From the NCBI RefSeq assembly GCF_036227205.1, contig NZ_CP109442.1:186001-250000 (forward strand): a DNA stretch of 64,000 bases, read 5' to 3'. Made by a program: the position numbers and the translations under genes. The DNA comes from Amycolatopsis sp. NBC_01480. GTDB lineage: Bacteria > Actinomycetota > Actinomycetes > Mycobacteriales > Pseudonocardiaceae. Each line of letters starts with the position of its first letter. Within the stretch, counting starts at the first letter, position 1. A model generated the notes under the pieces. The model saw only the letters and a program-made list of their open reading frames with translations, was not told where the DNA came from and did not search any database. Shown here piece by piece: positions 1 to 13,228 of this stretch.

Positions 1-814
1 AGAAATCGTGCGGGAGATCCGGGAACTGCCGGTGCCGCACCGTGATCGGCGCTTCGGCCAGCTGCCGCACCCAGGCGATGCCTTCGTCACGCAGCACGTC
101 GCAGCCCGCCGTCACGAGCGCGCAGTCCGGCAGCCGGGCCAGCTCGATTTCCGGTAACACGAACGGATCGAAGGCGCGGCCGGTGAAAAACGGCCTGAGG
201 ATCGAGGTGAAACCCCGCATCGCGGCCCGGTCGAGGAAGTAACCCTCCCCGAACGTCCGGTAGGACTCACGCTCGGTGTGCAGGTCCAGGACCGGGTAGA
301 TCAGCACGAGGCGCGAGAAGACGCCGGGCAGCACCCGCAGGCTCAGGTAGAGCGACAGCAGTCCGCCGACGCTGTCCCCGGCGAGGACGAGTTCCCGGTC
401 CCCCAGCTCTTCGCACCGCGCCGCGAGGTGTTTTCCCAGCTGCGCCACCGACTCTTCGACGTCGTACTCTGGCGCCTTCAGGTAGTCGAAGGCCTCCACC
501 GGCGCGTGCAAGGCGGTCGCCAACGTGCGCAGGAACGGCCGGAAGGTGTCGGTCGAGTAGTAGACCATTCCGCCGCCGTGGATGTAGAAGACGTGCGGGG
601 CGGCCTCGGCTTCCTGCGCCGGCCGGACGAGCACCGAATGCGCGCCCGCCTCGACCGACGCGCCGTCGTCCGGCTCAGCGCCGCCGAAGCGCGAAATCCA
701 CCGCTCGGCGTTCGCCCGGTCCACCGTGAGCGAACCGGTGGACGCCGGCACCGCCATCAGCTTCCGGGCGGCGGCCAGCCGCGCGAACTCGGCGTTCAGC
801 AGCCGCTCAGCCAT
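1..814 (-). CDS. HSL-type alpha/beta-hydrolase, C-terminus cut by window edge
   Basis: Serine hydrolase of the hormone-sensitive-lipase type, expected to cleave ester or amide bonds in the cytoplasm; no signal peptide is visible. Reading from the ATG at 814, the oxyanion-hole motif HGGG sits in YIHGGGMVYYS and the nucleophile elbow is GDSVGG. The window ends just after LPHDF, whose His is the likely catalytic base, so only the last residues are missing. The start codon lies inside the end of the adenylation gene (8-base overlap), which implies translational coupling. In this cluster it could release or trim an activated product, but that is inference. The family is firm; the substrate is unknown. 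Confidence 0.85.
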   Translation of the reverse strand, partial: MAERLLNAEFARLAAARKLMAVPASTGSLTVDRANAERWISRFGGAEPDDGASVEAGAHSVLVRPAQEAEAAPHVFYIHGGGMVYYSTDTFRPFLRTLATALHAPVEAFDYLKAPEYDVEESVAQLGKHLAARCEELGDRELVLAGDSVGGLLSLYLSLRVLPGVFSRLVLIYPVLDLHTERESYRTFGEGYFLDRAAMRGFTSILRPFFTGRAFDPFVLPEIELARLPDCALVTAGCDVLRDEGIAWVRQLAEAPITVRHRQFPDLPHDF

Positions 815-2462
815 CGCTGGGCTCGGCTTTTCCTTCGGGCGTCAGGACAAAGTGGTTCGCGCTCGAATCCTGGGCCGCCTCGGCGAGCCTTCGCATCAGC
901 CGGCTCTCGTCCGTCTTCCCGGTTGAGGACACGGTCAGCTCGGGTGACCAGGCGACCAGGCCCGGGCGCATGTACTCGGGCAGCAGGTCGGCCAGCAGCC
1001 GCTCGACGTCGGCCAGCACCGCCTGGTCCGGCGCCATCACCACGAGGGCGATCACGTCGCGGCCGCGGCGCGGGACCAGCGCGACCGCCGCCCGGCCGAC
1101 GCCCGGGCAGCCCAGCGCGAGCTGCCGGATCTCGCCCAGGTGGATGCGGCGGCCGGCGAGCTTCACCTCGTCGTCGTTGCGGCCGTGGAACACGAGGTCG
1201 CCGTTTTCGTCGTAACTGCACAGGTCGCCCGTGCGGTAGTAACGGACTCCGTCGACCTCGACCACGCGGCGGGCGGTCTCCTCCGGCTGGCCGAAGTAAC
1301 CCAGCATCACCTGCTCGCCGCCGATCCACAGCTCGCCGACCTGGCCGGGCTCGCGGACCTCGGCCCCGTTCGTCACCAGGCGTGCCGCCACCCCGCGCAG
1401 GGGCTTGCCGATCGGGTACGAGCTGGTGCGCTCCGGTTCGGCTCGCTTGATCTCATGGGCGACGCAGACGATCGTCGCCTCGGTCGGTCCGTAGACGTTG
1501 ATCACCCGCACCTCGGGCAGCTGGGTCTTCCAGGTGGTGATCACGCCGGGGTCGCAGACCTCCGCGCCGGTCATCACCATCTCCAGCCCGGGGAACTTCT
1601 CCCGGGTGACCTGCCGCCCGCCTTCGGTGATCATGGTCAGCAGCGTGGACACCGCGATCAGGTGCGTGATCCGCTCGCGGGTGATGACCGCGCGCATGAC
1701 CGCGCCGGCGTGCACGCCGCGGAACTGGTGGACGTACGCGCCCAGCGAAAGCGGCAGCAGCGTGTCCTCGATCGACACGTCGAAGTGGAACGGCGACAGG
1801 CTGAAAACCCTTGAGGCGGGCGTGAACCGGAGCACTTCGTTGTGGTTCCCGAAGTACGCGACCAGGCTGGCGACACTGATCTCGACGCCCTTCGGCGTTC
1901 CCGTCGACCCCGAGGTGAAGATGATGTACGCCGTGTCCTCGGGCTCGTGCGCCACGGCCGGCCGCTCCGGGGCGGGACCCGCAAGGATCGCGTCAAGCTG
2001 CGTCCGGCCCGCCCAGCCGACGTCGGTCACCACCGGATCCCGGTCGTCCAGCGCGAGCACGGCCCGCGGTTCCAGCCGGTCGAGCAGGGCGGTCAGCCGG
2101 GCGGCCGGTTGCGCGGCGTCGAGCGGGACGTAAACGGCGCCGCACTTCCAGATCCCGATGGCGAGGCCGGGCATCAGCGCGCTTTTCCCGGCCAGGATCG
2201 CCACCCGGTCACCGCGGCGGACGCCCGCTTCGGTCAGCCAGGCCGCGAGTGCCCGGGCTTGCTGCTCCAGCTCGGCGAACGTGAGCCCGCCGCGCCCGTC
2301 GTGGACCGCCGGGCGGTCCGGCCAGTTGCTCGCCGCGGCCTGGACGAGGTCGCCGAGCGCGGGCGCCGGGGCGGCCCGGTCGGCGGGGTCGAGCGACCAC
2401 GGCGGCAACAAGGCCGGTGACGCCGCCGGAACCACGCTCTCCGCCACGAAAATCTCCGTCAC
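807..2462 (-). CDS. Stand-alone amino-acid adenylation enzyme (NRPS A-domain type)
   Basis: A 551-residue ATP-dependent enzyme that should activate an amino acid as its aminoacyl-AMP. NRPS core motifs occur in order: A3 FTSGSTGTPKG near residues 182-192, A4 FHFDVSIED near 225-233, A5 NVYGPTEAT near 322-330, A7 YRTGDL near 409-414, A8 GRNDDEVKLAGRRIHLGEI near 427-445, and an A10 lysine in TGKTDESRL near the C-terminus. The Asp in FDVS (about 228) is the residue that usually holds the alpha-amino group, favouring an amino-acid substrate. No carrier or condensation domain is fused and none is seen nearby. The GTG start at 2462 overlaps the GNAT stop by 4 bases and is preferred over long upstream extensions that run through other genes. 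A trans-acting loading enzyme or amide ligase is equally possible. Confidence 0.9.
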   Translation of the reverse strand: MTEIFVAESVVPAASPALLPPWSLDPADRAAPAPALGDLVQAAASNWPDRPAVHDGRGGLTFAELEQQARALAAWLTEAGVRRGDRVAILAGKSALMPGLAIGIWKCGAVYVPLDAAQPAARLTALLDRLEPRAVLALDDRDPVVTDVGWAGRTQLDAILAGPAPERPAVAHEPEDTAYIIFTSGSTGTPKGVEISVASLVAYFGNHNEVLRFTPASRVFSLSPFHFDVSIEDTLLPLSLGAYVHQFRGVHAGAVMRAVITRERITHLIAVSTLLTMITEGGRQVTREKFPGLEMVMTGAEVCDPGVITTWKTQLPEVRVINVYGPTEATIVCVAHEIKRAEPERTSSYPIGKPLRGVAARLVTNGAEVREPGQVGELWIGGEQVMLGYFGQPEETARRVVEVDGVRYYRTGDLCSYDENGDLVFHGRNDDEVKLAGRRIHLGEIRQLALGCPGVGRAAVALVPRRGRDVIALVVMAPDQAVLADVERLLADLLPEYMRPGLVAWSPELTVSSTGKTDESRLMRRLAEAAQDSSANHFVLTPEGKAEPSDG

Positions 2463-2932
2463 GAAAGGTCCAGCCCCTCGATTTCGTAGGTGAACCGGGC
2501 CTTGGCTTTGGCCGTCGCGCCCATGCGCCGGTAGAAGCCGATGCCCAGTTCGTTGTCCGGCGGCGTCTGCCATTCGGCCCAGTCGCAGCGGTGGGCGGCG
2601 GCGAATTCCCGCAGCCGCTCGAAGAACGCGCGGCCGAGCCCCATCCGGCGATAGGGCTCGCGCAGGTAGAGGCAATCCAGGTAGGCGAACGGCTTCGCGC
2701 TCCAGGTGGCGAAGTCGACGGTGACGGTCATGAAGCCACAGGGCTCCCCGTTGTCGGTCGCCATCCAGCCGTGCAGCGCGGGCTGCTCCGAGAACATCGC
2801 CGTATGCCAGCGCCCGACCTGGCCGTCCTCGCGGAAATCCGCCTTTTCGTACACCGCGTGCTCGCGGCACAGCTCCAGCAGCGCGTCCAGCTGACCGGGT
2901 TCGATCGGCTGCACTTTGATGTCGTGGTTCAT
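2459..2932 (-). CDS. GNAT-family N-acetyltransferase
   Basis: Predicted 157-residue acyl-CoA-dependent N-acyltransferase. The acetyl-CoA pyrophosphate loop is visible as YRRMGLGRAFFERL about 90 residues in, followed by a typical GNAT C-terminus (IGFYRRMGA). The ATG at 2932 overlaps the preceding stop in an ATGA junction, and its own stop overlaps the GTG of the adenylation gene, so four left-operon genes are translated as one coupled unit. GNATs acylate free amines or hydrazines in several hydrazine pathways, so protection of a hydrazine intermediate is a reasonable but untested role. The acceptor cannot be read from the sequence. Confidence 0.85.
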   Translation of the reverse strand: MNHDIKVQPIEPGQLDALLELCREHAVYEKADFREDGQVGRWHTAMFSEQPALHGWMATDNGEPCGFMTVTVDFATWSAKPFAYLDCLYLREPYRRMGLGRAFFERLREFAAAHRCDWAEWQTPPDNELGIGFYRRMGATAKAKARFTYEIEGLDLS

Positions 2933-3393
2933 ACCCATCCCGAGAAAGTCATGCCGAGGTACGCGTCGAGCGAATCCTGGTCGAGCTTGCCGCGCGCGAG
3001 CACCGTCTTGACCCAGGCGTCGCGCTCGAACTTCAGCACCTCGAGCTCCCAGACGCAGGCGATCACGGCCCGTTCGGCCAGGGGCTCGAACGCCGCGCCC
3101 CCGGCCGAGCCGCGCACCCAGTGCTTGAGCATGTTGGCGTCGAACCACTGGCTGACCAGCAGGTAGTCGCCGTCTCCGCCGCGGTGCAGGATCACGAAGC
3201 CGGCCGGGTGGTCCTCGGGTTCCGGCGGTTCGAGCAGCACCGAGGCGACCTGCTGTCGCAGCCACTCCGGCGACGGCGGGGTGTCGGCGTCCACCGGGTC
3301 CGCGAAGATGCCGTACGCCTTCAGGGCCCGGCCGCGCACGTCCAGCGGCGGGAGTGCCTTGACCAGGCGCGGCGAGTACGTCAGCGAGTTCAC
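2929..3393 (-). CDS. Uncharacterised protein, first main gene of the left operon
   Basis: A 154-residue soluble protein that I do not recognise with certainty. It begins MNSLTYSPRLVKALPPLD and contains the segments YLLVSQWFDANMLKHW and ACVWELEVLKFERDAWV; there is no signal peptide, membrane segment or nucleotide-binding motif. The chosen start is the GTG at 3393, because a 14-codon ORF ends exactly on it (GTGA overlap) and that small ORF has the good ribosome binding site. The stop overlaps the GNAT start. Position and tight coupling make it a dedicated cluster protein, but no function can be assigned from motifs. Confidence 0.7.
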   Translation of the reverse strand: MNSLTYSPRLVKALPPLDVRGRALKAYGIFADPVDADTPPSPEWLRQQVASVLLEPPEPEDHPAGFVILHRGGDGDYLLVSQWFDANMLKHWVRGSAGGAAFEPLAERAVIACVWELEVLKFERDAWVKTVLARGKLDQDSLDAYLGMTFSGWV

Positions 3394-3434
3394 CGGACGG
3401 CGCCCCCGCCGGCCGGCCGTGCAGTGTTGCTCAT
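3390..3434 (-). CDS. Candidate 14-residue leader ORF coupled to the left operon
   Basis: An ATG at 3434 opens a 14-codon frame (MSNTARPAGGGAVR) whose TGA overlaps the GTG start of the next gene by four bases. Upstream on the minus strand is GGAGG about 11 bases before the ATG, whereas the downstream GTG has only a weak G-rich stretch. The arrangement matches the other junctions in this operon and suggests ribosomes load here first. It could be a simple coupling leader or a coincidence; no precursor-peptide features such as a double-glycine site are evident. Confidence 0.4.
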   Translation of the reverse strand: MSNTARPAGGGAVR

Positions 3435-3803
3435 GCGCTCGTTCGCCTCCGAAATGCCCGGATCGTCGAAACGCGATTAATCGCGTTTGATTTCCCGAAG
3501 ATCATTCTGCTACCCGCGGCGGATCCGCCGACGATCTTTTTTCCATCGCCCCTCAGCCCGCACAAAGTTCCCACCCCTGAACCATTGGCCGTCGCCCATC
3601 CTTGCCAGGCCCGGCCGGGCATGTCAAGCCCCGTCCGGTGATCGGAATTCACTCCACAATCACTTCGATAAATGTCGTTACGTCACCGGACGAATACCCG
3701 CAACCACCCGGCCCAACCCCTAGACTGTCCGAGTGAACCCCAATCCGTCCGCTTGAAAGGATCAAGTGTGCCTGGCTAGCCTGGCGAAGCAGGCAGGGGG
3801 AAG
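3435..3803. promoter_or_regulatory. Divergent promoter region of the hydrazine cluster
   Basis: About 370 bases between the two divergent operons, visibly richer in A/T than the flanking genes, as expected of a bidirectional promoter. It holds the 20-bp palindrome at 3469-3488. Just before the right operon there is a small hairpin whose TGCCTG/CAGGCA arms lie within about 3769-3795. No regulator gene lies in either operon. The 73-residue minus frame at 3431-3652 has no domain signature and is not called. Confidence 0.6.
3469..3488. promoter_or_regulatory. 20-bp perfect palindrome, likely operator
   Basis: The half-site AAACGCGATT is followed directly by its exact reverse complement, giving a 20-bp perfect palindrome about 35 bases upstream of the left-operon 14-codon ORF and within the shared intergenic region. 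It lacks a spacer, so it is more likely a dimeric repressor site than a transcript hairpin. Which protein binds it is unknown; the nearest regulator in the window is the LAL protein at 14380-17094. Confidence 0.55.
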
Positions 3804-4295
3804 GTGTGCTTTCTGATGTTCGATTATCGGGCTCCGGACGTGATCGACAGTCCGGCCATTCGGTCCATCGCGGTGCAGGACAATGGTGCATACCGTAATA
3901 GCACTGGATATTATCTTACCTTCTTTCGCGACTTCCCGCGAACTTCATTGGTGGCCACCGACGGGAAGCGGCCGATCGGCTTCGTCATCGGGTACCGCCG
4001 TCCGGCCGAACCCGGCGACTACGTGATCGCCCAGCACGCCCTGCTCCCGGACTTCGACACGGTCGAGGCCAGGACGTCGCTGCTGACCACGGCGATCCGC
4101 GGGCAGGTCCGCGCCGGCGCCCGGCGCGTGGAGCTGGCCGTACCCGACCGCGACCGGACCACCCTGGCCGCCCTCGAGCGGGTCGCCGAAGAGCAGGGCG
4201 CACGGGTGGAAACCGCCGGACGGCCGGCGACGACCGCCGGGCCACCCGATTGTTCACTTTTTCTACTGGGGCCGTTCACGCCCGCAGCCAACTGA
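3804..4295 (+). CDS. EctA-like GNAT acetyltransferase with degenerate acetyl-CoA loop
   Basis: A 163-residue protein resembling L-2,4-diaminobutyrate acetyltransferase (EctA) in its first two thirds: YLTFFRDFPRTSLVATDG followed by GFVIGYRRP matches the EctA pattern around the conserved CRDF/TSVVA and GFVTGY segments. The usual RxxGxG/A loop that grips acetyl-CoA is not present where expected (LLTTAIRGQVRAGARRV), so the activity may be altered or lost. Start is ambiguous: GTG at 3804 sits close behind GGGGGAAG, while ATG at 3816 is the alternative. It leads the right operon, with a 75-base gap before the lysine hydroxylase. With the EctB/Dat-like aminotransferase downstream it hints that diaminobutyrate is a building block. 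Confidence 0.65.
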   Translation: MCFLMFDYRAPDVIDSPAIRSIAVQDNGAYRNSTGYYLTFFRDFPRTSLVATDGKRPIGFVIGYRRPAEPGDYVIAQHALLPDFDTVEARTSLLTTAIRGQVRAGARRVELAVPDRDRTTLAALERVAEEQGARVETAGRPATTAGPPDCSLFLLGPFTPAAN

Positions 4296-4370
4296 TCACG
4301 AACCAGGATTCCACCCGAGCACGCCGGCGCCGCAGTGCGTGCTGCCCTTTTTTCGGCATCAATCCGATTG

Positions 4371-5690
4371 GTGACAAAGACAGTGGATGTAGACGTCCTT
4401 GGTATTGGATTCGGTCCGGCCAACATCGCGACCGCGATAGCGATCGAGGAACTCGGCGTCGATGTCTCGGCGGTCTTCCTCGAACGCCGCCCGGGCCCCA
4501 GCTGGCAATCCGCGATGATGCTGGACGGGAGCGACATCCAGCACAACGCGGTCCGGGACCTCGCGTTGCCGCGAAACCCACGCAGCCGCTACACGTTCCT
4601 CAACTATCTCTTCGAGCACGAGCGGCTGTTCGAGTACCTCAACGTCGGGCTGCCGTTCCCGCTGCGCAAGGACTACGCGCGTTACGTGATCTGGGCGGCC
4701 GAGCAGTTCGCCGGCCAGGTCCGTTACGGCAGCTCGGTCACGACCCTGGACACGGTCACCGAAGCGGGCGAAGACCTCGTCGAAGCGACGCTGGCCGACG
4801 GTTCGGTGATCCGGGCGCGCGCCGCCGTCGTCGCGCCGGGCCGGGCCCCGCGCATTCCCGCCGTTTTCCAGGGCGTCGATGACCCGCGGGTGTTCCACCT
4901 GACCGACTACCTCAACCGGGTCGGCGAGCTGGCCAGGATCGAGCGGCCCCGGGTGGCCGTGATCGGCGGGAGTCAGAGCGCGGTGGAGCTCACCATCGAC
5001 CTGAACAAACGGCTGCAGTACGTGCCGGGTGCCGAGGTGCACAACATCATGCGCGGCTTCGGGTACCGGCAGAAGGACCTCAGCCCGTTCACCAACGAGG
5101 TCTTCTACCCCAGCTTCATCGACTACTTCTACGACAGCAGCGAGCAGTCCAAGCGAGAGCTCTCCGAGGAGCTGCGCTTCACCAACTACTCGGCCGCCGA
5201 CAGCGACGTGATCCAGGCGCTGTACACCACGATGTACGAGCAGGGCCTCGACGGCGACAACCGGATCAAGCTGGTGCGCAACACGGCGATCGAGTCCTGC
5301 GCGGTCGAGCCGGACGGGATCACGCTGCGGCTGCGCGAGGTGCACCGCGGCACCGTCGACCAGGAGCGCTTCGACGCGATCGTGCTCGCCACCGGCTTCG
5401 TCGACCTGACCGACGTGCAGGGCGAGCAGTTCCTGCCCACGGTGCTGTCCGGGATCGCGCCGAAGGTGGGACGCACCGAGTCCGGGCACGCCATGGTCGG
5501 GCGCGAGTACGAGCTCGGCGCCGCGCCGGGCGGCACGCTGCCCCCGATCTACCTCAACGGGCTCTGCGAGACGACCCACGGCCTCGGCGACGCCGGCTCG
5601 TTCAGCCTGCTTTCGCTGCGCGCGACGACCATCGCCGAAAGCCTCGCGAAGGTCTTCACCTCGCTCAAAACGACCGCGGCGGGGGCATGA
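4371..5690 (+). CDS. L-lysine/ornithine N-monooxygenase, likely lysine N6-hydroxylase
   Basis: Flavin N-hydroxylating monooxygenase of the IucD/SidA class (439 residues from GTG 4371). It has the FAD motif GIGFGPANIA near residue 11, the segment SDIQHNAVRDLALPRNPRS followed by YTFLNYLFEHERLF that matches the substrate-proximal region of lysine/ornithine hydroxylases, the NADPH motif VIGGSQSAVEL near 198, and ATGF near 340. It should convert L-lysine (or ornithine) to the N-hydroxy amino acid with O2 and NADPH. In hydrazine pathways this is the Spb38 role. No clear ribosome binding site settles the start; GTG 4383 and GTG 4335 are in frame too. Its stop overlaps the aminotransferase ATG by four bases. 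Confidence 0.88.
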   Translation: MTKTVDVDVLGIGFGPANIATAIAIEELGVDVSAVFLERRPGPSWQSAMMLDGSDIQHNAVRDLALPRNPRSRYTFLNYLFEHERLFEYLNVGLPFPLRKDYARYVIWAAEQFAGQVRYGSSVTTLDTVTEAGEDLVEATLADGSVIRARAAVVAPGRAPRIPAVFQGVDDPRVFHLTDYLNRVGELARIERPRVAVIGGSQSAVELTIDLNKRLQYVPGAEVHNIMRGFGYRQKDLSPFTNEVFYPSFIDYFYDSSEQSKRELSEELRFTNYSAADSDVIQALYTTMYEQGLDGDNRIKLVRNTAIESCAVEPDGITLRLREVHRGTVDQERFDAIVLATGFVDLTDVQGEQFLPTVLSGIAPKVGRTESGHAMVGREYELGAAPGGTLPPIYLNGLCETTHGLGDAGSFSLLSLRATTIAESLAKVFTSLKTTAAGA

Positions 5691-7039
5691 GCACCTCACT
5701 CGGCGCCGGCCTGCGGCCGGACGTGCGCACCGCGATCCCCGGCCCCAAATCGGCGGAACTGCTGGCACGGCAGGAGGAGCGCGAGTCCAACGCCCGCTCG
5801 TACCCGCGGCGGCTGCCGGTCGCGCTCGAACGGGGCCTGGGCGCCTACGTGGAAGACGTGGACGGCAACGTCTTCCTCGACTTCCTGGCCGGCGCCGGCG
5901 TGCTCGCCCTCGGGCACAGCCATCCCGAGGTAGTCGCCGCAGTCGAGGAACAGCTGGGCAAGCTGGTGCACGGCCTGGACCTGCCGACGCCGATCAAGGA
6001 CCGGTTCACCGAAGCGCACCTGGCGCTGCTGCCCGAATCCATGCGGTCCACCACCAAAATCCACTTCTGCGGGCCGACCGGCGCCAACGCGGTGGAGGCG
6101 GCGCTCAAGCTGTGCAAGTCCCACACCGGGCGCTCGGACATCATCTCGTTCCAGGGCGGCTTCCACGGCTCGACGCACGGCGCGATGGCCGTCACCGGGC
6201 TGGTCGGGCCGAAGGCGGCGGTGCCCGGCGGGATGCCGGGCGCGCACTTCTTCCCGTACTCCCACTGTTTCCGGTGCCCGCTGGGGCTGACGCCCACCAG
6301 CTGTGACACGAATTGCGCCACATATCTGGAAAACAGCCTCCGCGACACCCACGGCGGGATCCCGAAGCCGGCCGCTGTGCTGCTGGAGCTGGTGCAGGGC
6401 GAAGGCGGCGTGATCCCGGCGACGCAGGCGTTCGCCACCAGGGTCGCCCGGCTGGCGCGCGAGCTGGACGTGCCGCTGATCGTCGACGAGATCCAGACCG
6501 GCTACGGCCGCACCGGCTCGTGGTTCGCCTTCGAGCGGTACGGGCTGGAGCCGGACGTGGTGCTCGCGTCCAAGGCGGCGGGCGGCATCGGCCTGCCGAT
6601 TTCGGTGATGTTCTACCACCGGCGGCTCGACACCTGGAGCGCCGGCGCGCACATCGGCACCTTCCGCGGGCACCAGCTCGCCTTCGCCGCCAGCGTGGCC
6701 GCGCTCGAGGTGATGCGACGGGACGACGTGCTGGGCAACGTCGCCGCCCGCGCCGAGCAGCTGCGCGCGGGCCTGGACTCGCTCGCGCTGAGGCATCCGG
6801 AAATCGGGGACGTGCGGGGCGTCGGGCTGATGCTCGGGATGGAGATCGTCGACCCGCTGACCGGTGCGCCCGACCCGGCGCGAGCGGCGGCGATCCAGCA
6901 GGCCGCACTGCGGCTGGGGCTGATCGTCGAACTCGGCGGACGCGGCGACGCGGTCGTGCGGCTGCTGCCGCCGCTCACGATCGACCACGAAACCGCCGGG
7001 CTCGCGCTGGAGATCCTGACCGAAGCCGTAGCCGGCTGA
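5687..7039 (+). CDS. Class III aminotransferase, diaminobutyrate/lysine-epsilon type
   Basis: A PLP enzyme of 450 residues. The cofactor-binding Asp is in IVDEIQTGYGR (D267) and the Schiff-base Lys in VLASKAAGGIGLP (about K296); FCGPTGANAVEAALKL is the diagnostic PLP-phosphate region. A Cys-rich insert (HCFRCPLG, then CDTNCATYLE) is typical of the PvdH/Dat-type diaminobutyrate-2-oxoglutarate aminotransferases. It probably makes L-2,4-diaminobutyrate from aspartate semialdehyde. An alternative, attractive here, is return of 2-aminoadipate 6-semialdehyde, the expected by-product of hydrazine release, to lysine. Translation is coupled to the hydroxylase by an ATGA overlap. Confidence 0.88.
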   Translation: MSTSLGAGLRPDVRTAIPGPKSAELLARQEERESNARSYPRRLPVALERGLGAYVEDVDGNVFLDFLAGAGVLALGHSHPEVVAAVEEQLGKLVHGLDLPTPIKDRFTEAHLALLPESMRSTTKIHFCGPTGANAVEAALKLCKSHTGRSDIISFQGGFHGSTHGAMAVTGLVGPKAAVPGGMPGAHFFPYSHCFRCPLGLTPTSCDTNCATYLENSLRDTHGGIPKPAAVLLELVQGEGGVIPATQAFATRVARLARELDVPLIVDEIQTGYGRTGSWFAFERYGLEPDVVLASKAAGGIGLPISVMFYHRRLDTWSAGAHIGTFRGHQLAFAASVAALEVMRRDDVLGNVAARAEQLRAGLDSLALRHPEIGDVRGVGLMLGMEIVDPLTGAPDPARAAAIQQAALRLGLIVELGGRGDAVVRLLPPLTIDHETAGLALEILTEAVAG

Positions 7040-7059
7040 CCGCCGAGAGGAAACACCCG

Positions 7060-7413
7060 ATGCTGATCGACAACCGGGCGGACCTGACCTTCCAACCGGA
7101 CTACAACGTGCACGCCCAGCGGCTCACCCGGCTGCAGGACGAACCCTACGAAGGCGGCGCCTGGGTCCGGGTGGCCCCCGGCGACACGATGACCGAGCAC
7201 GTGAACCCCGGCGGCGAGACCGAGATCTTCTACTTCCTCGAAGGCACCGGCCGGATGACGGTCGGGGACGACACCACGACCGTGGGCCGCGGCGACACCG
7301 TGCTCATCCCGCCGGACACGAAACACGTGCTGGTCAACGAAAGCGACGCACCGCTGCTGGCGCTGGCCCTGTGGTGGGGCGGGGAAACCCACGTCCGGAC
7401 CGCGGTCTCGTGA
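7060..7413 (+). CDS. Single-domain cupin, predicted N-N bond forming partner
   Basis: A 117-residue one-domain cupin. Likely metal ligands are H47 in TEHVNPGG, E53 or E55 in GETEIFYFLEG, and H89 in PPDTKHVLV, matching the two cupin motifs. In the known hydrazine synthases (Spb40, Tri28 and PyrN types) a cupin of this kind is fused to a MetRS-like domain and rearranges the aminoacyl ester of N6-hydroxylysine into an N-N bond. Here it is a separate gene from the MetRS-like protein at 9192. GAGAGG about 9 bases upstream supports the ATG at 7060. The stop overlaps the GTG of the flavoenzyme. Confidence 0.85.
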   Translation: MLIDNRADLTFQPDYNVHAQRLTRLQDEPYEGGAWVRVAPGDTMTEHVNPGGETEIFYFLEGTGRMTVGDDTTTVGRGDTVLIPPDTKHVLVNESDAPLLALALWWGGETHVRTAVS

Positions 7414-8540
7414 CCACAGCCGACGTGGTGGTGGCCGGCGGCGGGGTGATCGGCGCGAGCATCGCGTTCCACCTCGCCGGCCAGGGCATCCGCGTGGTGG
7501 TCTGCGATCAGGGGAATGGCTCGACTCCCCGGTCGGCGGGCCAGGTGCGGCTGACCCACAGCGACCCCGCCGACCTGCGGCTCGCCGCGCTCAGCCTGCC
7601 GGTGTTCGAGCAGTGGGCGGAACGGGTCGGCGGCGACTGCGGCTTCCGGGCCACCGGGTTCGCGCTGCTGGTCGACGAGGACTACCGCTCGGTGGCCGCG
7701 ACTTCGGTGAAGGAGCTGGACGTCCTCGGCATCGAGGCGCGGCTGCTCGAACCCGGCGAGTACGCGCGGCAGCGGCCGGGCCTGCGGTACGACGGCGTCG
7801 CCGCGGTACTGGTCGAACCGCGCTCCGGCTACGCGGATCCCGTGGCGACCACCCAGTCGTTGCTGGACCGAGCGGTTGATCTTGGGGCGCAGGTGCGCAC
7901 CGGCACGCGGGTGGAGAGCCTGGTCGTTTCCGGCGATTCGGTGCGGGGCGTGCGGACCGCGACCGGGGAGATCTCGGCGGCGGAGGTGGTCCTGGCCACC
8001 AACGCCTGGGGCGCCGGGCTGCTCGCCGCGACCGGCGTGACCGTCCCGCTTTCCACCGGGCGCGTCGGCTGGGCCGCGGTGGACGGTGTCGGCCTGCCGG
8101 GGGTGGACGTCACGATCGACGACACGATCGGCACGTACTTCCGGCCCTGGGGCGACCACGGAGTGCTGTACCGCGTGCCGATGAACGAACGCGGCGGCTC
8201 GCCGGACACGCCGTCCGGCCCGGTGCGCACCGACCACGCTCGAACCCTTGTGGCGCAACGCATTCCGGCGCTTGCGGACCGTGACGTCACGGCGACGGGG
8301 TCGGCATGGGAGTCCTACACCCCGGACGGCAAACCCGTGCTCGGCCGGGCCGGGCCCGGCGGGGTCTACCTGGCGCTGGGGCCCTCGGGCGGCGGCTTCA
8401 AGGCGGCGCCCGCGATCGGCCGCGCGGTGGCCGCCGAGCTGAGTGGCGACGGGCCGGCCGGCGAACTCGATCCGTACCGGTTCGCCCGCTTCTCCGGGGA
8501 CGAGCACCGGCCGGTCGCCCGACGCTATCGGCACATGTGA
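7410..8540 (+). CDS. FAD-dependent amine/glycine oxidase-like enzyme (DAO family)
   Basis: A 376-residue flavoprotein of the D-amino-acid oxidase / glycine oxidase / sarcosine oxidase family. The dinucleotide motif is [11 protein letters not shown] near the N-terminus; SAGQVRLTH and the C-terminal TPDGKPVLG ... [11 protein letters not shown] complete the FAD site. Within a lysine hydroxylase, cupin and MetRS-like gene set it fits the Spb39 role: oxidising the N-N linked lysine conjugate so that a hydrazino acid leaves and 2-aminoadipate 6-semialdehyde remains. The GTG start overlaps the cupin stop. The family is firm; the exact substrate is inference from context. Confidence 0.87.
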
Positions 8541-8559
8541 CGCAGAAAGGAGGGCCGCG

Positions 8560-9195
8560 GTGAAGAGATTCCCCGGCCGGGCAGCGCTGGCGCGAGCCCG
8601 CGAAGACATCGAGGTGGTCCGGGCGAAGGACCCGGCCGTGACCTCGACCTGGGAGGTGCTGCTGTACCCGCACCTGCACGCGCTGTGGCTGCACCGGCTC
8701 GCGTACCGGCTCTACCGGCGGCGGCGGTTCGCGCCGGCGCGGGCGATCGCGTTGTTCGCCAGGGCCGTCTCGGGCATCGACATCCATCCCGGCGCCCGAA
8801 TCGGCCGCCGGTTCTTCATCGACCACGGCGCCGGGGTGGTGATCGGGGAAACGGCAGAGATCGGCGACGACGTGATGCTCTACCACCTGGTCACCCTCGG
8901 CTCGGTGGGCTGGTGGCGGGACTTCGCCCGGACCAAGGGCGCCAAACGCCACCCGACGCTCGGCGACGGCGTGGTGCTCGGCACCGCCGCCACGATCCTG
9001 GGCCCGGTGGTGGTCGGCTCGGGCAGCATCGTCGGCGCGCACGCCGTGGTCCTGCGGTCGCTGCCGGAACAGTCGCGGGTGGCGCCCGGACATGTGGTCC
9101 GCCGCGAGGCCGTGGCCGGGGACGAAAAGGTCCCGGCCGAGGAAACCTGGTACTCCGCCGACGAGATCGACGCGCACGAGGAGGCACGGAAGTGA
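8560..9195 (+). CDS. Serine O-acetyltransferase-like (CysE/EpsC) hexapeptide-repeat protein
   Basis: A 211-residue acyltransferase of the serine acetyltransferase type. The N-terminal helical part ([20 protein letters not shown], then [15 protein letters not shown]) is followed by left-handed beta-helix hexapeptides: [36 protein letters not shown] and the loop VTLG. It should make O-acetyl-L-serine from serine and acetyl-CoA, either as an electrophilic building block or acting on another hydroxyl in the pathway. AAAGGAGG six bases before GTG 8560 fixes the start. Its end overlaps the MetRS-like start by four bases. No O-acetylserine-using PLP enzyme is seen in the window. Confidence 0.85.
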
Positions 9196-10817
9196 CCACG
9201 AGGACCGGCCGGGTGCTGATCACCTGCGCACCCCCGAACCCCAACGGCGACCTGCACCTCGGGCACCTGTCCGGGCCGTTCTTCGGCGCGGACGTGCTGC
9301 GGCGGTACCTGATCGCCCGCGGCGCCTCGGTCAGCTACGTCAGCTACACCGACGACCACTCGTGCTACATCCCGCGCCGCGGCGCGGAAATCGGCTACCC
9401 GGCGCACGAAACGGCGCTGCGGTACACCCGCCGGATCGAGCAGTCGCTCGCGCTGGCGGGCATGCTCCCCGACTACTACGAGCACCCGCACCGCGAGCCC
9501 GTGCACAACGAGGTCGTGCGGCGCGAGTTCGGCAAGCTCTGGGCCGCTGGCATGATCGAGGAACAGGAGCTGCCCACGGCGTACTGCGAGCCCTGCGGCG
9601 CCTACCGCTACGAGGCCCAGCTGCGCGGCCTGTGCCGGTTCTGCGAATCGCCGTCCGACGGCACGTATTGCGAGGAATGCGGGCTGCCGCAAGATGTCGA
9701 GGGGCTGCACGAGGCGAAGTGCACCACCTGCGGCACCCTGGCGACCACCCGGCTGTCCCGGCGGCTGGTGTTCCCGCTCGCCCGCTGGGCCGGTCAGCTT
9801 TCGGCGCTGTACGACGAACGGCCGTGGCGCCGCCGGGTGCTGGACTACTGCGAGAAGCTGGTCGCGGCCGGGCTCCCGGACGTCCCGATCAGCCGCATCG
9901 ACTCGTACGGCATCGAGGTGCCGCTGCCCGGCTGGGAGGGGCACATCCTCGACACCTGGTTCAGCGGGATTTTCGGTTACATGGCGGCGACTGAGGCGTA
10001 CGCGGCCGCGCTCGGCACGCCCGAACTCGCCGAGGAGCTGTGGACCGACCCGGACACCACGCTGGTGCATTTCATCGGGTTCGACTGCTCGTTCTCCCAC
10101 GCGGCGCTGTGGCCCGCGCTGCTGCTGGCGCTGGGCCGGCCGGTGCTGCCGGAGCACGTGATCTCGAACGAGTTCTACGCACTCGAAGGCGGTAAGTTCT
10201 CCACCAGCCGTGGCTGGGCCATCTGGGCCTCGGACTTTCTGCGCGAAGTGCCGGCCGACGCGGCGCGGTTCCACCTCGCGCTGACCAACCCGGAAACCGA
10301 GCGGACCGACTTCCGCCGCACCGAGTTCGACCACACCCTGCACACGGTGCTCGGCTCCCAACTCGACGGCTGGACCGGCGCGGTGCTCGCCGGCCTGGCC
10401 GCCGAATGCGACTCGACCGTGCCCGCTTCGCGCGCGCCCGAACCCCGGGCCCGTGCGGCCGCCCTCACGGAGAAAGTGGCCGCAGCACTGGAACCCGACG
10501 TGTTCCTGCCCCGCTCGGCGGCGTCCGCCATCGCCGAAACGGTGGCCTGGGCTGCTGAGGATCTCCGGACTGCCGCGCCCGAGCTTTCCGTGGTGCTCGC
10601 CGGTCACGCCGAACTGCTGGCCACGCTCGCCGCCGTGGCCGCGCCCCTGCTGCCGGACTGGTCCCGGCGAGTGGCCGGGCTCTTCGCCCTGCCCACCATC
10701 GGACTGGACGAACTCCCGGCCTGGCCGTCGGACGGCGTGGCGGTGCTGGCAGCCGGTCAGCGCGTCGGGACGGGGTACCAGAAGATCTTCGCTGCCCGGT
10801 CCGACGTCGGTGGCTGA
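9192..10817 (+). CDS. MetRS-like amino-acid ligase, predicted hydrazine synthase subunit
   Basis: A 541-residue class I aminoacyl-tRNA-synthetase homologue closest to methionyl-tRNA synthetase. The HIGH motif is HLGH (residues 22-25) in [17 protein letters not shown]; a zinc-knuckle region has CEPCG, CRFC, CEECG and CTTCG pairs around residues 132-180; the KMSKS loop is KFSTSR at about 335-340, so the second catalytic Lys is replaced by Thr. There is no C-terminal tRNA-binding extension, and the helical end is short. In Spb40/Tri28/PyrN-type systems such a domain activates glycine or glutamate and loads it on N6-hydroxylysine. The GTG at 9192 overlaps the acetyltransferase stop; the end overlaps the permease start by 8 bases. 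A housekeeping MetRS is unlikely given the context and the altered KMSKS. Confidence 0.87.
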
Positions 10818-12087
10818 GCCCACGCCCCGCGGCGCCGCCGCGTCGCTGGCCCTGGCCGCCGGCGTGGTCGGGGTCGGTGCCCTGTTCCTGCCGTGGCTCG
10901 CCGTGGCGCGCGACGGCTGGGTTTCGGTTGGGGCGTGGGGGTTTCATGTCGTTGTCGGCGGGCTGTTGGTGGTCGCGCTTGGCGCTCGGGAGGACTCGGG
11001 CGAGCGGGCTGGCGGTCTCGCTCGTGCCCGGCAGAGCTCTGGCGAGCGGGCTGGCTCCGTACCGCTCGCCGCTGCGCGGCAGGACTCGGCCGAGCAGGCC
11101 AGCAGCGGATCGGTCGGCCATGTTCGACAGGACTCGGCCGAGCAGGCTGACTCCGGCCTGCTCGACGTGGCCCGGCGGGCGGTGCCGCGCTACTACCTGC
11201 TCGGCGTGAGTGTGGGGCAGGCTGTGGTCGCGTCGCTGGCGGGCGGTTTCCTGGCCACCGCTGTCGGCGCGCCCGGCTCCTGGCCGGTGTTCGCGCTCGT
11301 CGTGCTGGTGCCCGCCGCCGTAGCCGGTGCTGCCGAGTGGCGGGGTCCGGCATGGACCTCATATGCGATGTTCGCCGTGATCGTGGTGGTGGCAGGGATC
11401 GCGGCCGCCAGTGGTGGGGTCGCGGCGGGTCCGGATTCGGTCGCGGGTGTGGGGCGGGCGGCGTTCCTCGTGTTGTTCGCGTTTGTCGGCTGGGAGGGTG
11501 CCGCTCGGCTACGCGGCGCGCGGATCGGCTGGCTGCTGGGCGGTGTGGCACTGGTCGGAGTGGTATACGTCGGCTTGGCCCTGTTCGCCGCGAGCACCAG
11601 CACCGGGGCGAGTGCGGGACTGCCGTTCTCGCTCGCCCCGTTCGGCCACGACGCACTCGGCCGTTCCGTCGCCGCGCTGGCCGGAGTGGTCTGCGCTGTA
11701 GCCTGCGCCCGCAACTTCGCGCTGGTAAAAACTCTTGGCGGCCAGCAATTTACCCATCTCAAAAGTCCACTATGGATGGTCGTGCCAGCCGCCATCGCCG
11801 CAGCCGGAGTGCTCCTGCTGACCGCCCACCTGGTCCGTCTCGAAGACCTGCTGAGCGTCCCCAACGCCATGGCGCTCGCCGTCTTCGCCACCGCAGCCGC
11901 AGGCGTACTCACCACCGGCAGAACCGCCGCCCGGCTCGCCGCCGGGGCCGCGCTGCTCGGTTACGCGTTGCTGATCCCGTTCGCCGGCCTCGCTCTCGCG
12001 TGGCCGGCCGCAGTGCTGCTCGCCACCGCGTTCGCCCGCTACGCAAGGAGGAATTCCGGTGCCCCTCATCAGCTCCGGCGCTTATGA
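10810..12087 (+). CDS. APC-superfamily permease with a repetitive loop
   Basis: A 425-residue membrane protein with roughly 11 hydrophobic segments, beginning LALAAGVVGVGALFLPWLAV as in amino acid/polyamine permeases. In the place where relatives carry a short conserved loop (ARxPDSGGL) it has about 55 extra residues built from four imperfect copies of DSGERAG / DSAEQA. It may export the cluster product or import a precursor. The GTG at 10810 overlaps the MetRS-like stop, and its 3' end overlaps the next gene by 29 bases. The family call is moderate; transport direction and substrate are unknown. Confidence 0.75.
   Translation: MAEPTPRGAAASLALAAGVVGVGALFLPWLAVARDGWVSVGAWGFHVVVGGLLVVALGAREDSGERAGGLARARQSSGERAGSVPLAAARQDSAEQASSGSVGHVRQDSAEQADSGLLDVARRAVPRYYLLGVSVGQAVVASLAGGFLATAVGAPGSWPVFALVVLVPAAVAGAAEWRGPAWTSYAMFAVIVVVAGIAAASGGVAAGPDSVAGVGRAAFLVLFAFVGWEGAARLRGARIGWLLGGVALVGVVYVGLALFAASTSTGASAGLPFSLAPFGHDALGRSVAALAGVVCAVACARNFALVKTLGGQQFTHLKSPLWMVVPAAIAAAGVLLLTAHLVRLEDLLSVPNAMALAVFATAAAGVLTTGRTAARLAAGAALLGYALLIPFAGLALAWPAAVLLATAFARYARRNSGAPHQLRRL
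10990..11152 (+). repeat. Imperfect tandem repeat inside the permease gene
   Basis: Four related units begin near 10991, 11031, 11080 and 11128. Each contains a version of GACTCGGCCGAGCAGGCT (encoding DSAEQA) or the diverged GAGCGGGCTGG form. Spacing is 40-49 bases, in-frame in effect, and the units expand one cytoplasmic-loop position. The last two units are almost identical, which points to recent slippage or copying. Confidence 0.7.
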
Positions 12088-12796
12088 CCGGTTCAGCGCC
12101 ACCGCCGGCGGCCCGGCCGCGACCGAGTACGGACTGGACAGCGTGCAGCCGTTCGCGGTGCTGCGCGAGGTCACCCGGCCGTTGCAGCCGGTTCCGCTGA
12201 CCTTCGCCGCCACCGGCGCGCCGGTCGGGCTTGATCTGGCCGACGTCCACCTGTCCCGGCAGTGCCGCGCGATGATGCGCCGGACCGCCGATCCCGAGCT
12301 GCCCATGCACGTGCTGGCGTGGTGGTGGGACCTCGGCGGCGGCGGTCCCCACGTCGTCGGCGCGCGCGATGAAGCCGAGGAAAAGCTGTGGTCGCTGGAG
12401 GTCGACGCGGAGGGCACCCGAACCTCGCACGCCGATCTCCGGCTCGTGCCGCCCCGCGAACTCGTCGCGGGTGTTGCGGTGCGGGTGATCCTGTGGCAGA
12501 CGCCGGGGGTCCCCGCGGCCCAGGTCACCGAAGAGGTCGAGGAGGCCATGCGGCACACCAAGCTCAACGGGATGCTCGACCTGTTGCGCGGCCTGTCGGG
12601 CACCTCGATGCACACCGTCGGCCTCGTGCGGGAAGCCGCGGGGGCGCTCGGCGGGGAGATCGCCCCGGTGCTGCGCGGGCTCTGCACCGACTACCTGGAC
12701 TTCTACGAAGGCCTGTACCCGGTCGCGGACCTCACCGAGCCCGAGTGGGCGGTCCGGGGTTTCCACAGTGGACTGCGGATCCGCCGCACCAGCTGA
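12059..12796 (+). CDS. Uncharacterised cluster protein
   Basis: A 245-residue protein I cannot assign. Segments include MHVLAWWWDLGGGGPHVVG, EEAMRHTKLNGMLDLLRGL and a C-terminus rich in acidic and aromatic residues; there is no signal peptide or membrane span. A near-perfect AAGGAGG seven bases before GTG 12059 fixes the start inside the 3' end of the permease, so it is clearly part of the same transcript. It might be a scaffold or an enzyme of an unrecognised family. Confidence 0.7.
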   Translation: MPLISSGAYDRFSATAGGPAATEYGLDSVQPFAVLREVTRPLQPVPLTFAATGAPVGLDLADVHLSRQCRAMMRRTADPELPMHVLAWWWDLGGGGPHVVGARDEAEEKLWSLEVDAEGTRTSHADLRLVPPRELVAGVAVRVILWQTPGVPAAQVTEEVEEAMRHTKLNGMLDLLRGLSGTSMHTVGLVREAAGALGGEIAPVLRGLCTDYLDFYEGLYPVADLTEPEWAVRGFHSGLRIRRTS

Positions 12797-12814
12797 GCAC
12801 CCCACGGAGCAGTG

Positions 12815-13228
12815 ATGCGCTTTTCCAAACTCCGCGCCGAAGGCCACAGCCACATCGTGGTCAACACCATCGACTGCCCCCACGACGACTGGAAACGGCT
12901 GGCGGCGATGTTCTGCGCCGAGTCGTCCGGCGTATCCGGCGACGGGTTCGCCGTGCTCTCCCACCGCGGCCGCGCGGCCTTCGACCTGCTGTGTTTCGAA
13001 CCGGACGGCACCCCCGCCGAAACCGACGCGCCCCCGGCCGCCTGCGCGGCCCTGTCGATCCGCCGCCGCTACGGCTACCAACGCGCGCTGCTGCACAGCA
13101 ACGGACGCGCGTACTCGACGCAGGTAACCGGGGAAACCGTGTCCCTCCAGCCGTGGCCGGCGGGGGAAAGCGCATCGCTGCGGAAAGTCCGGGTCACCTA
13201 CCTGCTCGAAGGCGAGCTGATCGGCTGA
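12815..13228 (+). CDS. Half-length diaminopimelate-epimerase-like protein lacking the catalytic Cys
   Basis: A 137-residue protein that resembles only the N-terminal half of DapF. MRFSKLRAEGHSHIVVNTID aligns with the DapF opening MxFxKxxGxGNDFVVxD; GVSGDGFAVL with GIGADGLLLL; and LLCFEPDGTPAET with the FNPDGSEAEM segment. Where DapF has the catalytic cysteine motif CGNG, this protein reads TDAPPAAC, so the first catalytic Cys and the substrate loop are gone, and the whole second domain with the second Cys is absent. GGAG five bases before ATG 12815 supports this start over GTG 12812. It is probably a binding or partner protein rather than an epimerase. DapF relatedness is my own alignment by eye. 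Confidence 0.6.
   Translation: MRFSKLRAEGHSHIVVNTIDCPHDDWKRLAAMFCAESSGVSGDGFAVLSHRGRAAFDLLCFEPDGTPAETDAPPAACAALSIRRRYGYQRALLHSNGRAYSTQVTGETVSLQPWPAGESASLRKVRVTYLLEGELIG

Follow-up and report, generated by a model that had tools for sequence, protein, structure and literature searches.

Only a few enzyme families known so far join two nitrogen atoms, and hydrazine synthetases have been discussed as biocatalysts (PMC11705231; this paper, PMC8664883 and PMC10445470 are cited throughout from their accessible parts). In PyrN and RHS1, a MetRS-like part forms an O-acyl hydroxylamine that a zinc cupin rearranges, and MetRS-like and cupin proteins encoded separately can act together (PMC8664883). Genes for a flavin N-hydroxylase (NMO), a cupin and a MetRS-like ligase, fused or stand-alone, constitute the hydrazine synthetase gene signature (PMC8664883). 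We analyzed a 64,000-nucleotide stretch of the 10.1 Mb genome of Amycolatopsis sp. NBC_01480 (RefSeq assembly GCF_036227205.1, contig NZ_CP109442.1; C1:186001-250000, hereafter the window), in which all three genes lie together within a run of ten plus-strand genes, the right operon (window 3804-13228, Table 1), beside a divergent left operon.

These genes probably join two nitrogen atoms to yield an unusual amino acid. Our tentative reading, which we place a little short of an even chance, is that the right operon encodes a hydrazine synthetase-type N–N cassette in which L-2,4-diaminobutyrate (DABA) donates the nitrogen and serine, perhaps in the form of O-acetylserine, is the acceptor. An N–N cluster of hydrazine synthetase type had been proposed here in an initial annotation; the signature of NMO, cupin and MetRS-like genes bears this out, and family searches and gene coordinates recovered every gene that it had named. 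Inside its interval it had omitted the permease-like, GNAT and 154-residue proteins, and the left operon extends past that interval to about 6.5 kb beyond the left edge of the window.

In the proposed pathway, an aminotransferase would convert aspartate semialdehyde to DABA, the NMO would hydroxylate its side-chain nitrogen and a serine O-acetyltransferase (SAT) would acetylate serine. The MetRS-like ligase would adenylate that amino acid and esterify it onto N-hydroxy-DABA without tRNA, the metal cupin would turn the O-acyl hydroxylamine into an N–N bond, and a DAO-family oxidase (DAO) would oxidize a hydrazine C–N bond, most likely on the DABA side. Aspartate semialdehyde would pass back to the aminotransferase, and the serine carbons would be released as part of a hydrazino acid. 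The left operon, with its adenylation enzyme, carrier-rhodanese fusion, FAD enzyme, GNAT, ATP-grasp protein and transporter, would load, tailor, couple and export the product.

Conservation of the cassette across actinobacteria

Contigs of 84,980 species were scanned, yielding 40 loci with a relative of the MetRS-like protein. The related set consists of the 27 loci (L028-L053 and L066) that match the window protein at 39% identity or more, hosted by Streptomyces, Amycolatopsis pithecellobii, Symbioplanes, Paractinoplanes, Actinacidiphila, Nocardia and unplaced actinobacteria. NMO, cupin, DAO and MetRS-like genes are each present in all 27. So is SAT, which in 26 loci is a separate gene immediately upstream of the MetRS-like gene on the same strand and in L033 is fused to it. 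An aminotransferase was called in 22 of the 27 and adjoins the gene for the counterpart of the window NMO (NMO-1, see below) in 18. The remaining 13 loci (L054-L065 and L067) served as a control: 12 have an NMO match and 12 a cupin match, and within flanks of up to 10 kb, some ended by contig edges, tblastn at E 1e-4 gave no SAT match and a single weak aminotransferase match (26%, L060). Judged by these comparisons, NMO, aminotransferase, cupin, DAO, SAT and MetRS-like ligase are a cassette common to other genera. The initial annotation had regarded the companion genes as peculiar to this cluster, a view that the aminotransferase and SAT contradict. As it had supposed, no characterized cluster was matched in the searches made; a 2024 survey reportedly assayed further cupin/MetRS pairs, which may include a member of this lineage.

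From the NMO onward, adjacent genes of the right operon overlap or are spaced by at most 20 bases, with 4-base overlaps at the NMO/aminotransferase, cupin/DAO and SAT/MetRS junctions. Because the arrangement recurs in other genera, it is not a product of chance. A second NMO is present in 19 of the 27 related loci and a cytochrome P450 (P450) in seven, so that one or the other accompanies the cassette in 25, L046 and L049 having neither. Genes were called with our own GC-bias script, which left the permease-like gene largely uncalled and missed the DapF-like half gene of L029; L049 appears fragmented in these calls.

Within the genus, 19 of 80 genomes have a MetRS-like match at E 1e-60 or better, and only the match in the strain's own genome belongs to this subfamily. 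In 18 of the 79 other genomes we observed a different MetRS-like cassette (L010-L027, 34-37% identical), whose short flanks contain an NMO match in 17 of 18 cases and a cupin match in nine. Among the MetRS-like homologs listed, the closest is 89% identical, and that of Amycolatopsis sp. PS_44_ISF1 81%.

Nitrogen donor

The NMO matches solved ornithine and lysine enzymes about equally (PDB 3s5w, ornithine, E 1.4e-69; 5cqf, lysine, E 2.4e-66; KtzI, E 1.5e-55), and its sequence does not fix its substrate. The hydroxylase of the initial annotation is present; ‘lysine’ is a family label only. In a midpoint-rooted FastTree phylogeny of 76 proteins, from which those of 250 residues or fewer were left out, the window protein falls in the NMO-1 clade, sister to NMO-2, and both clades are distinct from the azaserine-type NMOs as well as from the two other strong NMOs of the genome. 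Identity to the NMOs of L061, L063 and L065, three of five loci called azaserine-type from gene order, is 27-29%.

The aminotransferase scores below the ectB family cut-off (349.3 bits against 552.2) and above that of the diaminobutyrate-2-oxoglutarate family (Table 1); its best solved relative is the diaminobutyrate transaminase 6rl5 (E 3.5e-76). Elsewhere in the genome a second TIGR00709 gene also scores above cut-off. Apy11 offers a described parallel in forming N4-hydroxy-DABA, which Apy9 joins to alanine (PMC11705231). We expect an N-hydroxy-DABA donor instead of lysine because the cassette aminotransferase is conserved, of DABA type and scarce in the distant loci, and the NMO is accordingly predicted, from gene context and family matches, to act on DABA.

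Acceptor amino acid

All 28 cassette SATs retain Asp-His in the DHG motif and Arg-His in the RHP motif, with an earlier acidic residue that is Asp in ten and Glu in 18; the roles of these motif residues are assumed here. The window SAT is the sole strong CysE-type match in its genome. Since a CysE-type match at E 1e-20 or better is absent from 50 of 60 genomes of the genus, SAT is not a standard primary-metabolism gene in the genus, and a role as the CysE of primary cysteine biosynthesis was rejected on this ground. Six of 120 MetRS-like homologs among the matches listed carry a hexapeptide SAT at their N-terminus, and these proteins fall into two distinct clades on a 121-sequence tree, one with four members and one with two (local support 0.94 and 0.98). 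Whether they reflect two fusions or one with losses, SAT is tied to the MetRS-like ligase either way.

The MetRS-like protein, aligned with 30 of its 288 homologs (alignment A1), carries the class I synthetase ATP motifs HLGH and KFSTS and scores 209.9 bits against a MetRS family cut-off of 336.35. Its Trp256, Tyr263 and His303 occupy the aligned positions of E. coli Trp253, Tyr260 and His301, for which we assume the contact roles of the E. coli pocket. The pocket comparison covered 28 of the 31 other loci, because the gene caller did not report this protein in L056, L057 and L059. Azaserine-type proteins have Ile at the position of Tyr263 and Tyr at that of Gly259, so that the pocket of the window protein differs from theirs and has space for a methionine-like side chain, no more; O-acetylserine and methionine are similar in size. 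Serine or O-acetylserine, not glycine, is the acceptor that we expect, because SAT is conserved in the cassette, is found fused to the MetRS-like protein and has no match in the distant loci. Plain serine is the conservative choice, since members of the hydrazine synthetase family that accept serine have been reported (PMC8664883).

Two further MetRS genes above the family cut-off were observed in the genome (C1:5622494-5623948 and C1:1986487-1988037). In L060 (Lentzea nigeriaca), a fused cupin-MetRS protein has pocket letters resembling those of PDB 9l8v/9vq4, deposited as methionine-tRNA ligase; these structures may belong to the hydrazine synthetase group.

Cupin and the N–N step

A profile built from 12 of the 28 cassette cupins (alignment A2) matches RHS1 (5UQP) at E 3.9e-13. 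Equivalents of RHS1 Glu69 and His103 are conserved in the window cupin, which has His47 at the position of RHS1 Asp63 and PyrN His50. Glu55, equivalent to RHS1 Glu69 and PyrN Glu56 in the register given by the profile match, is invariant in the 12 aligned cupins, as the same Glu is among the cupins investigated in PMC8664883. Glu53 is invariant in the 12 as well, and in the window cupin Glu53 and Glu55 could share the metal.

Fate of the hydrazine and alternative pathways

Both directions of cleavage are described for DAO-family enzymes of such pathways: Spb39 cleaves on the donor side and Apy10 on the acceptor side (PMC11705231). The window DAO matches PDB 1y56_B (E 2.6e-33). It reaches no more than 26% identity (223 residues, E 7.7e-4) with the DAO beside the NMO in L061, L063 and L065, and 31% over 356 residues with a DAO-family gene elsewhere in L065. 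A donor-side cut is our preference, as it would resupply the aminotransferase with aspartate semialdehyde and retain the acetylated serine carbons that SAT had served to make. A more specific form of this proposal, possible but doubtful, has the MetRS-like ligase activating O-acetyl-L-serine from its partner (sometimes fused) SAT and coupling it to N-hydroxy-DABA. Acetate would be the leaving group, the N–N product could eliminate or cyclize to an N–N group so far not known from the family, and DABA would serve as a recycled nitrogen carrier.

Were the DAO of the same DABA cassette to cut on the acceptor side, it would give 2-amino-4-hydrazinobutanoate, possibly followed by ring closure to a pyridazinone, and SAT would act elsewhere. 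This is unlikely in our view, though not far-fetched, as Apy10 acting on DABA-Ala provides a DABA precedent (PMC11705231) and all 27 related loci have a DAO-family enzyme; it would make little sense, however, to acetylate serine and then discard its carbons, and the fusion of SAT to the MetRS-like protein in two clades also speaks against it. The DABA-serine hydrazine might instead be kept whole and oxidized to an amino acid carrying an azo or azoxy group, with loss of acetate giving dehydroalanine, much as serine serves in a leaving-group route to dehydroalanine in valanimycin. The second NMO or P450 that accompanies most related cassettes and the FAD enzyme of the left operon fit such an oxidation, but the window cluster has neither a second NMO nor a P450, and no VlmO- or VlmB-like protein was recognized, although no search by those names was made; we regard this outcome as rather unlikely.

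Coupling of N6-hydroxylysine with glycine to hydrazinoacetic acid, the s56-p1 and triacsin logic from which the initial annotation had argued, would draw on the same enzyme families, DAO included, and the NMO's match to the lysine hydroxylase 5cqf is almost as strong as that to the ornithine enzyme 3s5w. We nevertheless consider it improbable: the NMO and its adjoining DAO are distant from their azaserine-type partners at the identities given above, the MetRS-like pocket differs at several positions, and it would leave unexplained both the aminotransferase, so often found beside the NMO-1 gene, and the company of SAT. Least credible, and very improbable, is that the MetRS-like protein and SAT confer self-protection on a methionine or cysteine antimetabolite cluster and make no N–N bond. 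With two other MetRS genes above cut-off, the cassette copy is not needed for housekeeping, but it falls well under the MetRS cut-off itself, SAT occurs fused to it, and cupin and NMO stand alongside in all 27 loci.

Several observations weigh against the donor-side DABA-serine reading, in which the substrates of every enzyme are predicted only. The 27 related loci were found by MetRS-like peptide patterns and thus sample one lineage, mostly Streptomyces. Five of them have no called aminotransferase, tblastn finding a distant or partial copy in L049 and L050, and those of L030, L031, L046 and L047 are of a different type (39-41% identical). The absence of a second NMO or P450 near the window cluster, unlike 25 of its 27 relatives, means that the pathway may differ here or be incomplete; as a guess, the left-operon FAD enzyme might take their place. 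The EctA-like protein scores far under its family cut-off and its gene has no relative in the 27 loci, and the FAD enzyme, hydrolase and 154-residue protein of the left operon have none among the genes called there. Nine of the 28 cassette cupins, the window's included, have Asn49 and a two-residue insertion at the position of RHS1 His65 and PyrN His52, where the other 19 have His; RHS1 His65 is a zinc ligand, and the H65A variant lost zinc (PMC8664883). The accessible text of that paper does not describe this His as invariant across the family, and it is not treated here as a defining feature. In the MetRS-like pocket, Trp256 and His303 are also kept in azaserine-type proteins, and therefore the pocket argument tells the two types apart only in part. 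Finally, Apy10, the characterized DABA case, cuts on the acceptor side to give pyruvate (PMC11705231).

Neighboring genes and the left operon

Upstream of window base 1 the left operon continues for about 6.5 kb, into a stretch designated L068. It is probably part of the same cluster as the right operon, because relatives of its ATP-grasp protein, rhodanese and other products occur in related loci: blastp relatives of the ATP-grasp protein in 12 of the 27 (best 30-35%), of the rhodanese in nine (best 48%), and of the adenylation enzymes and the GNAT in one each (L052 for the GNAT, 36% over 104 residues). It is nonetheless mostly particular to this strain. The 154-residue protein has no Pfam match at E 1 and no NCBIfam match at E 0.01. 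By eye, the usual core motifs of the second adenylation enzyme appear degraded, making it possibly an inactive partner, and the carrier-rhodanese fusion hints at sulfur chemistry taking place on an acyl group bound to the carrier.

Table 1. Genes of the right and left operons. Negative coordinates count upstream of window base 1.
Gene product	Position in window	Strand	Evidence and remarks
Right operon			
EctA-like GNAT	3804..4295	+	TIGR02406 E 9.4e-10, 38.7 bits (cut-off 120.6); ATG 3816 possible start
NMO, Lys/Orn-type	4335..5690	+	PF13434 E 1.9e-85; alternative start 4371
Class-III aminotransferase, diaminobutyrate-2-oxoglutarate family	5687..7039	+	TIGR00709 ‘dat’ 454.9 bits (cut-off 401.6)
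Stand-alone one-domain cupin, candidate for N–N rearrangement	7060..7413	+	Cupin_2 PF07883 E 1.4e-17
DAO-family FAD oxidase, glycine/sarcosine oxidase-like	7410..8540	+	PF01266 E 1.6e-54, scored on longer frame from 7371
SAT, CysE/EpsC type	8560..9195	+	NF041874 180.6 bits (cut-off 150); TIGR01172 184.2 bits (below cut-off 210.65)
Stand-alone MetRS-like ligase	9192..10817	+	PF09334 E 1.2e-70, scored on longer frame from 8685
Permease-like membrane protein	10810..12087	+	‘Permease’ assigned by eye
Conserved protein, 245 residues	12059..12796	+	33 homologs, none with precomputed Pfam domain
DapF-like half protein	12812..13228	+	TIGR00652 E 6.7e-4, PF01678 E 0.044, both under cut-off
Left operon			
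154-residue protein	2929..3393	-	No family match
GNAT N-acetyltransferase	2459..2932	-	PF00583 E 1.9e-14
Stand-alone adenylation (AMP-binding) enzyme	807..2462	-	PF00501 E 1.5e-79; TIGR01733 348.5 bits (cut-off 317.4)
Alpha/beta hydrolase, esterase-like by eye	1..814	-	307-residue frame crossing the left edge of the window; family assigned by eye
Second adenylation enzyme	-1745 to -189 (L068:18255-19811)	-	60% identical to the 807-2462 enzyme
Carrier domain-rhodanese fusion	-2437 to -1745 (L068:17563-18255)	-	PF00550 E 2.6e-4, PF00581 E 3.1e-12
FAD enzyme	-3709 to -2456	-	PF01494
MFS transporter	-5056 to -3758	-	
ATP-grasp protein	-6479 to -5184	-	PF13535

The permease-like protein has no Pfam or NCBIfam match; blastp finds matches in six loci, among them a membrane protein of L031 that is 35% identical over 438 residues. 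Relatives of the 245-residue protein occur in four of the 27 related loci; 24 of its 33 homologs were aligned with the window sequence (alignment A3). Its AlphaFold model has a pLDDT of 93.5, and PDB matches to the model are only weak, of C2-like beta-sandwich type. Five homologs of the DapF-like half protein were found, with 35% identity over 115 residues in L029, and it is probably not an epimerase. The motif that we take to hold the catalytic Cys appears, by eye in the alignment, to have been lost.

Comparison with known systems

If the proposed reading is true, a lineage with its own donor supply (the aminotransferase) and acceptor modification (SAT) would extend the acceptors from plain to activated amino acids and point to products with new N–N groups. 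The conserved cassette is in any case a directly testable enzyme set in Streptomyces and Amycolatopsis genomes.

Like the ectoine operon EctABC, the window has EctA-like and EctB-family genes, here flanking the NMO. An ectoine operon was considered and rejected, as both the EctA-like protein and the aminotransferase score below the respective ectoine family cut-offs and no EctC is found among the family matches of the operon. The RHS1 pair of Rhodococcus jostii RHA1 resembles the window in having an NMO and in encoding the cupin and the MetRS-like protein by separate genes, whereas its pathway couples N6-hydroxylysine with glutamate and the window core instead adds SAT, aminotransferase and DAO (PMC8664883). 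The two cupins also differ, as described above, in having His65 in RHS1 and Asn in the window protein. Albofungin Afn8/Afn9/Afn18 show the same separation of MetRS-like and cupin genes with an NMO; delivery of free hydrazine to a polyketide has been proposed there, and the accessible part of PMC11705231 mentions neither SAT nor aminotransferase.

The s56-p1, triacsin and azaserine modules share NMO, DAO and cupin/MetRS chemistry with the window (PMC11705231, PMC10445470). Hydrazinoacetic acid modules (Spb38/39/40, Tri26-28 and AzsL-N) use lysine and glycine and a fused cupin-MetRS protein (PMC11705231), in contrast to the separate window genes. With its AMP-binding, carrier, N-acetyltransferase, ATP-grasp and MFS transporter genes, the azaserine cluster is also like the left operon (PMC10445470); the azaserine-type loci L061, L063 and L065 gave no GNAT match at E 0.1. 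In actinopyridazinone biosynthesis, Apy9 takes alanine only, with no SAT mentioned in the accessible text of PMC11705231. Apy9, Apy10 and Apy11 are nevertheless like the window, by description and not by sequence, in the N4-hydroxy-DABA use that is predicted here, the hydrazine synthetase and the DAO-family oxidase (PMC11705231).

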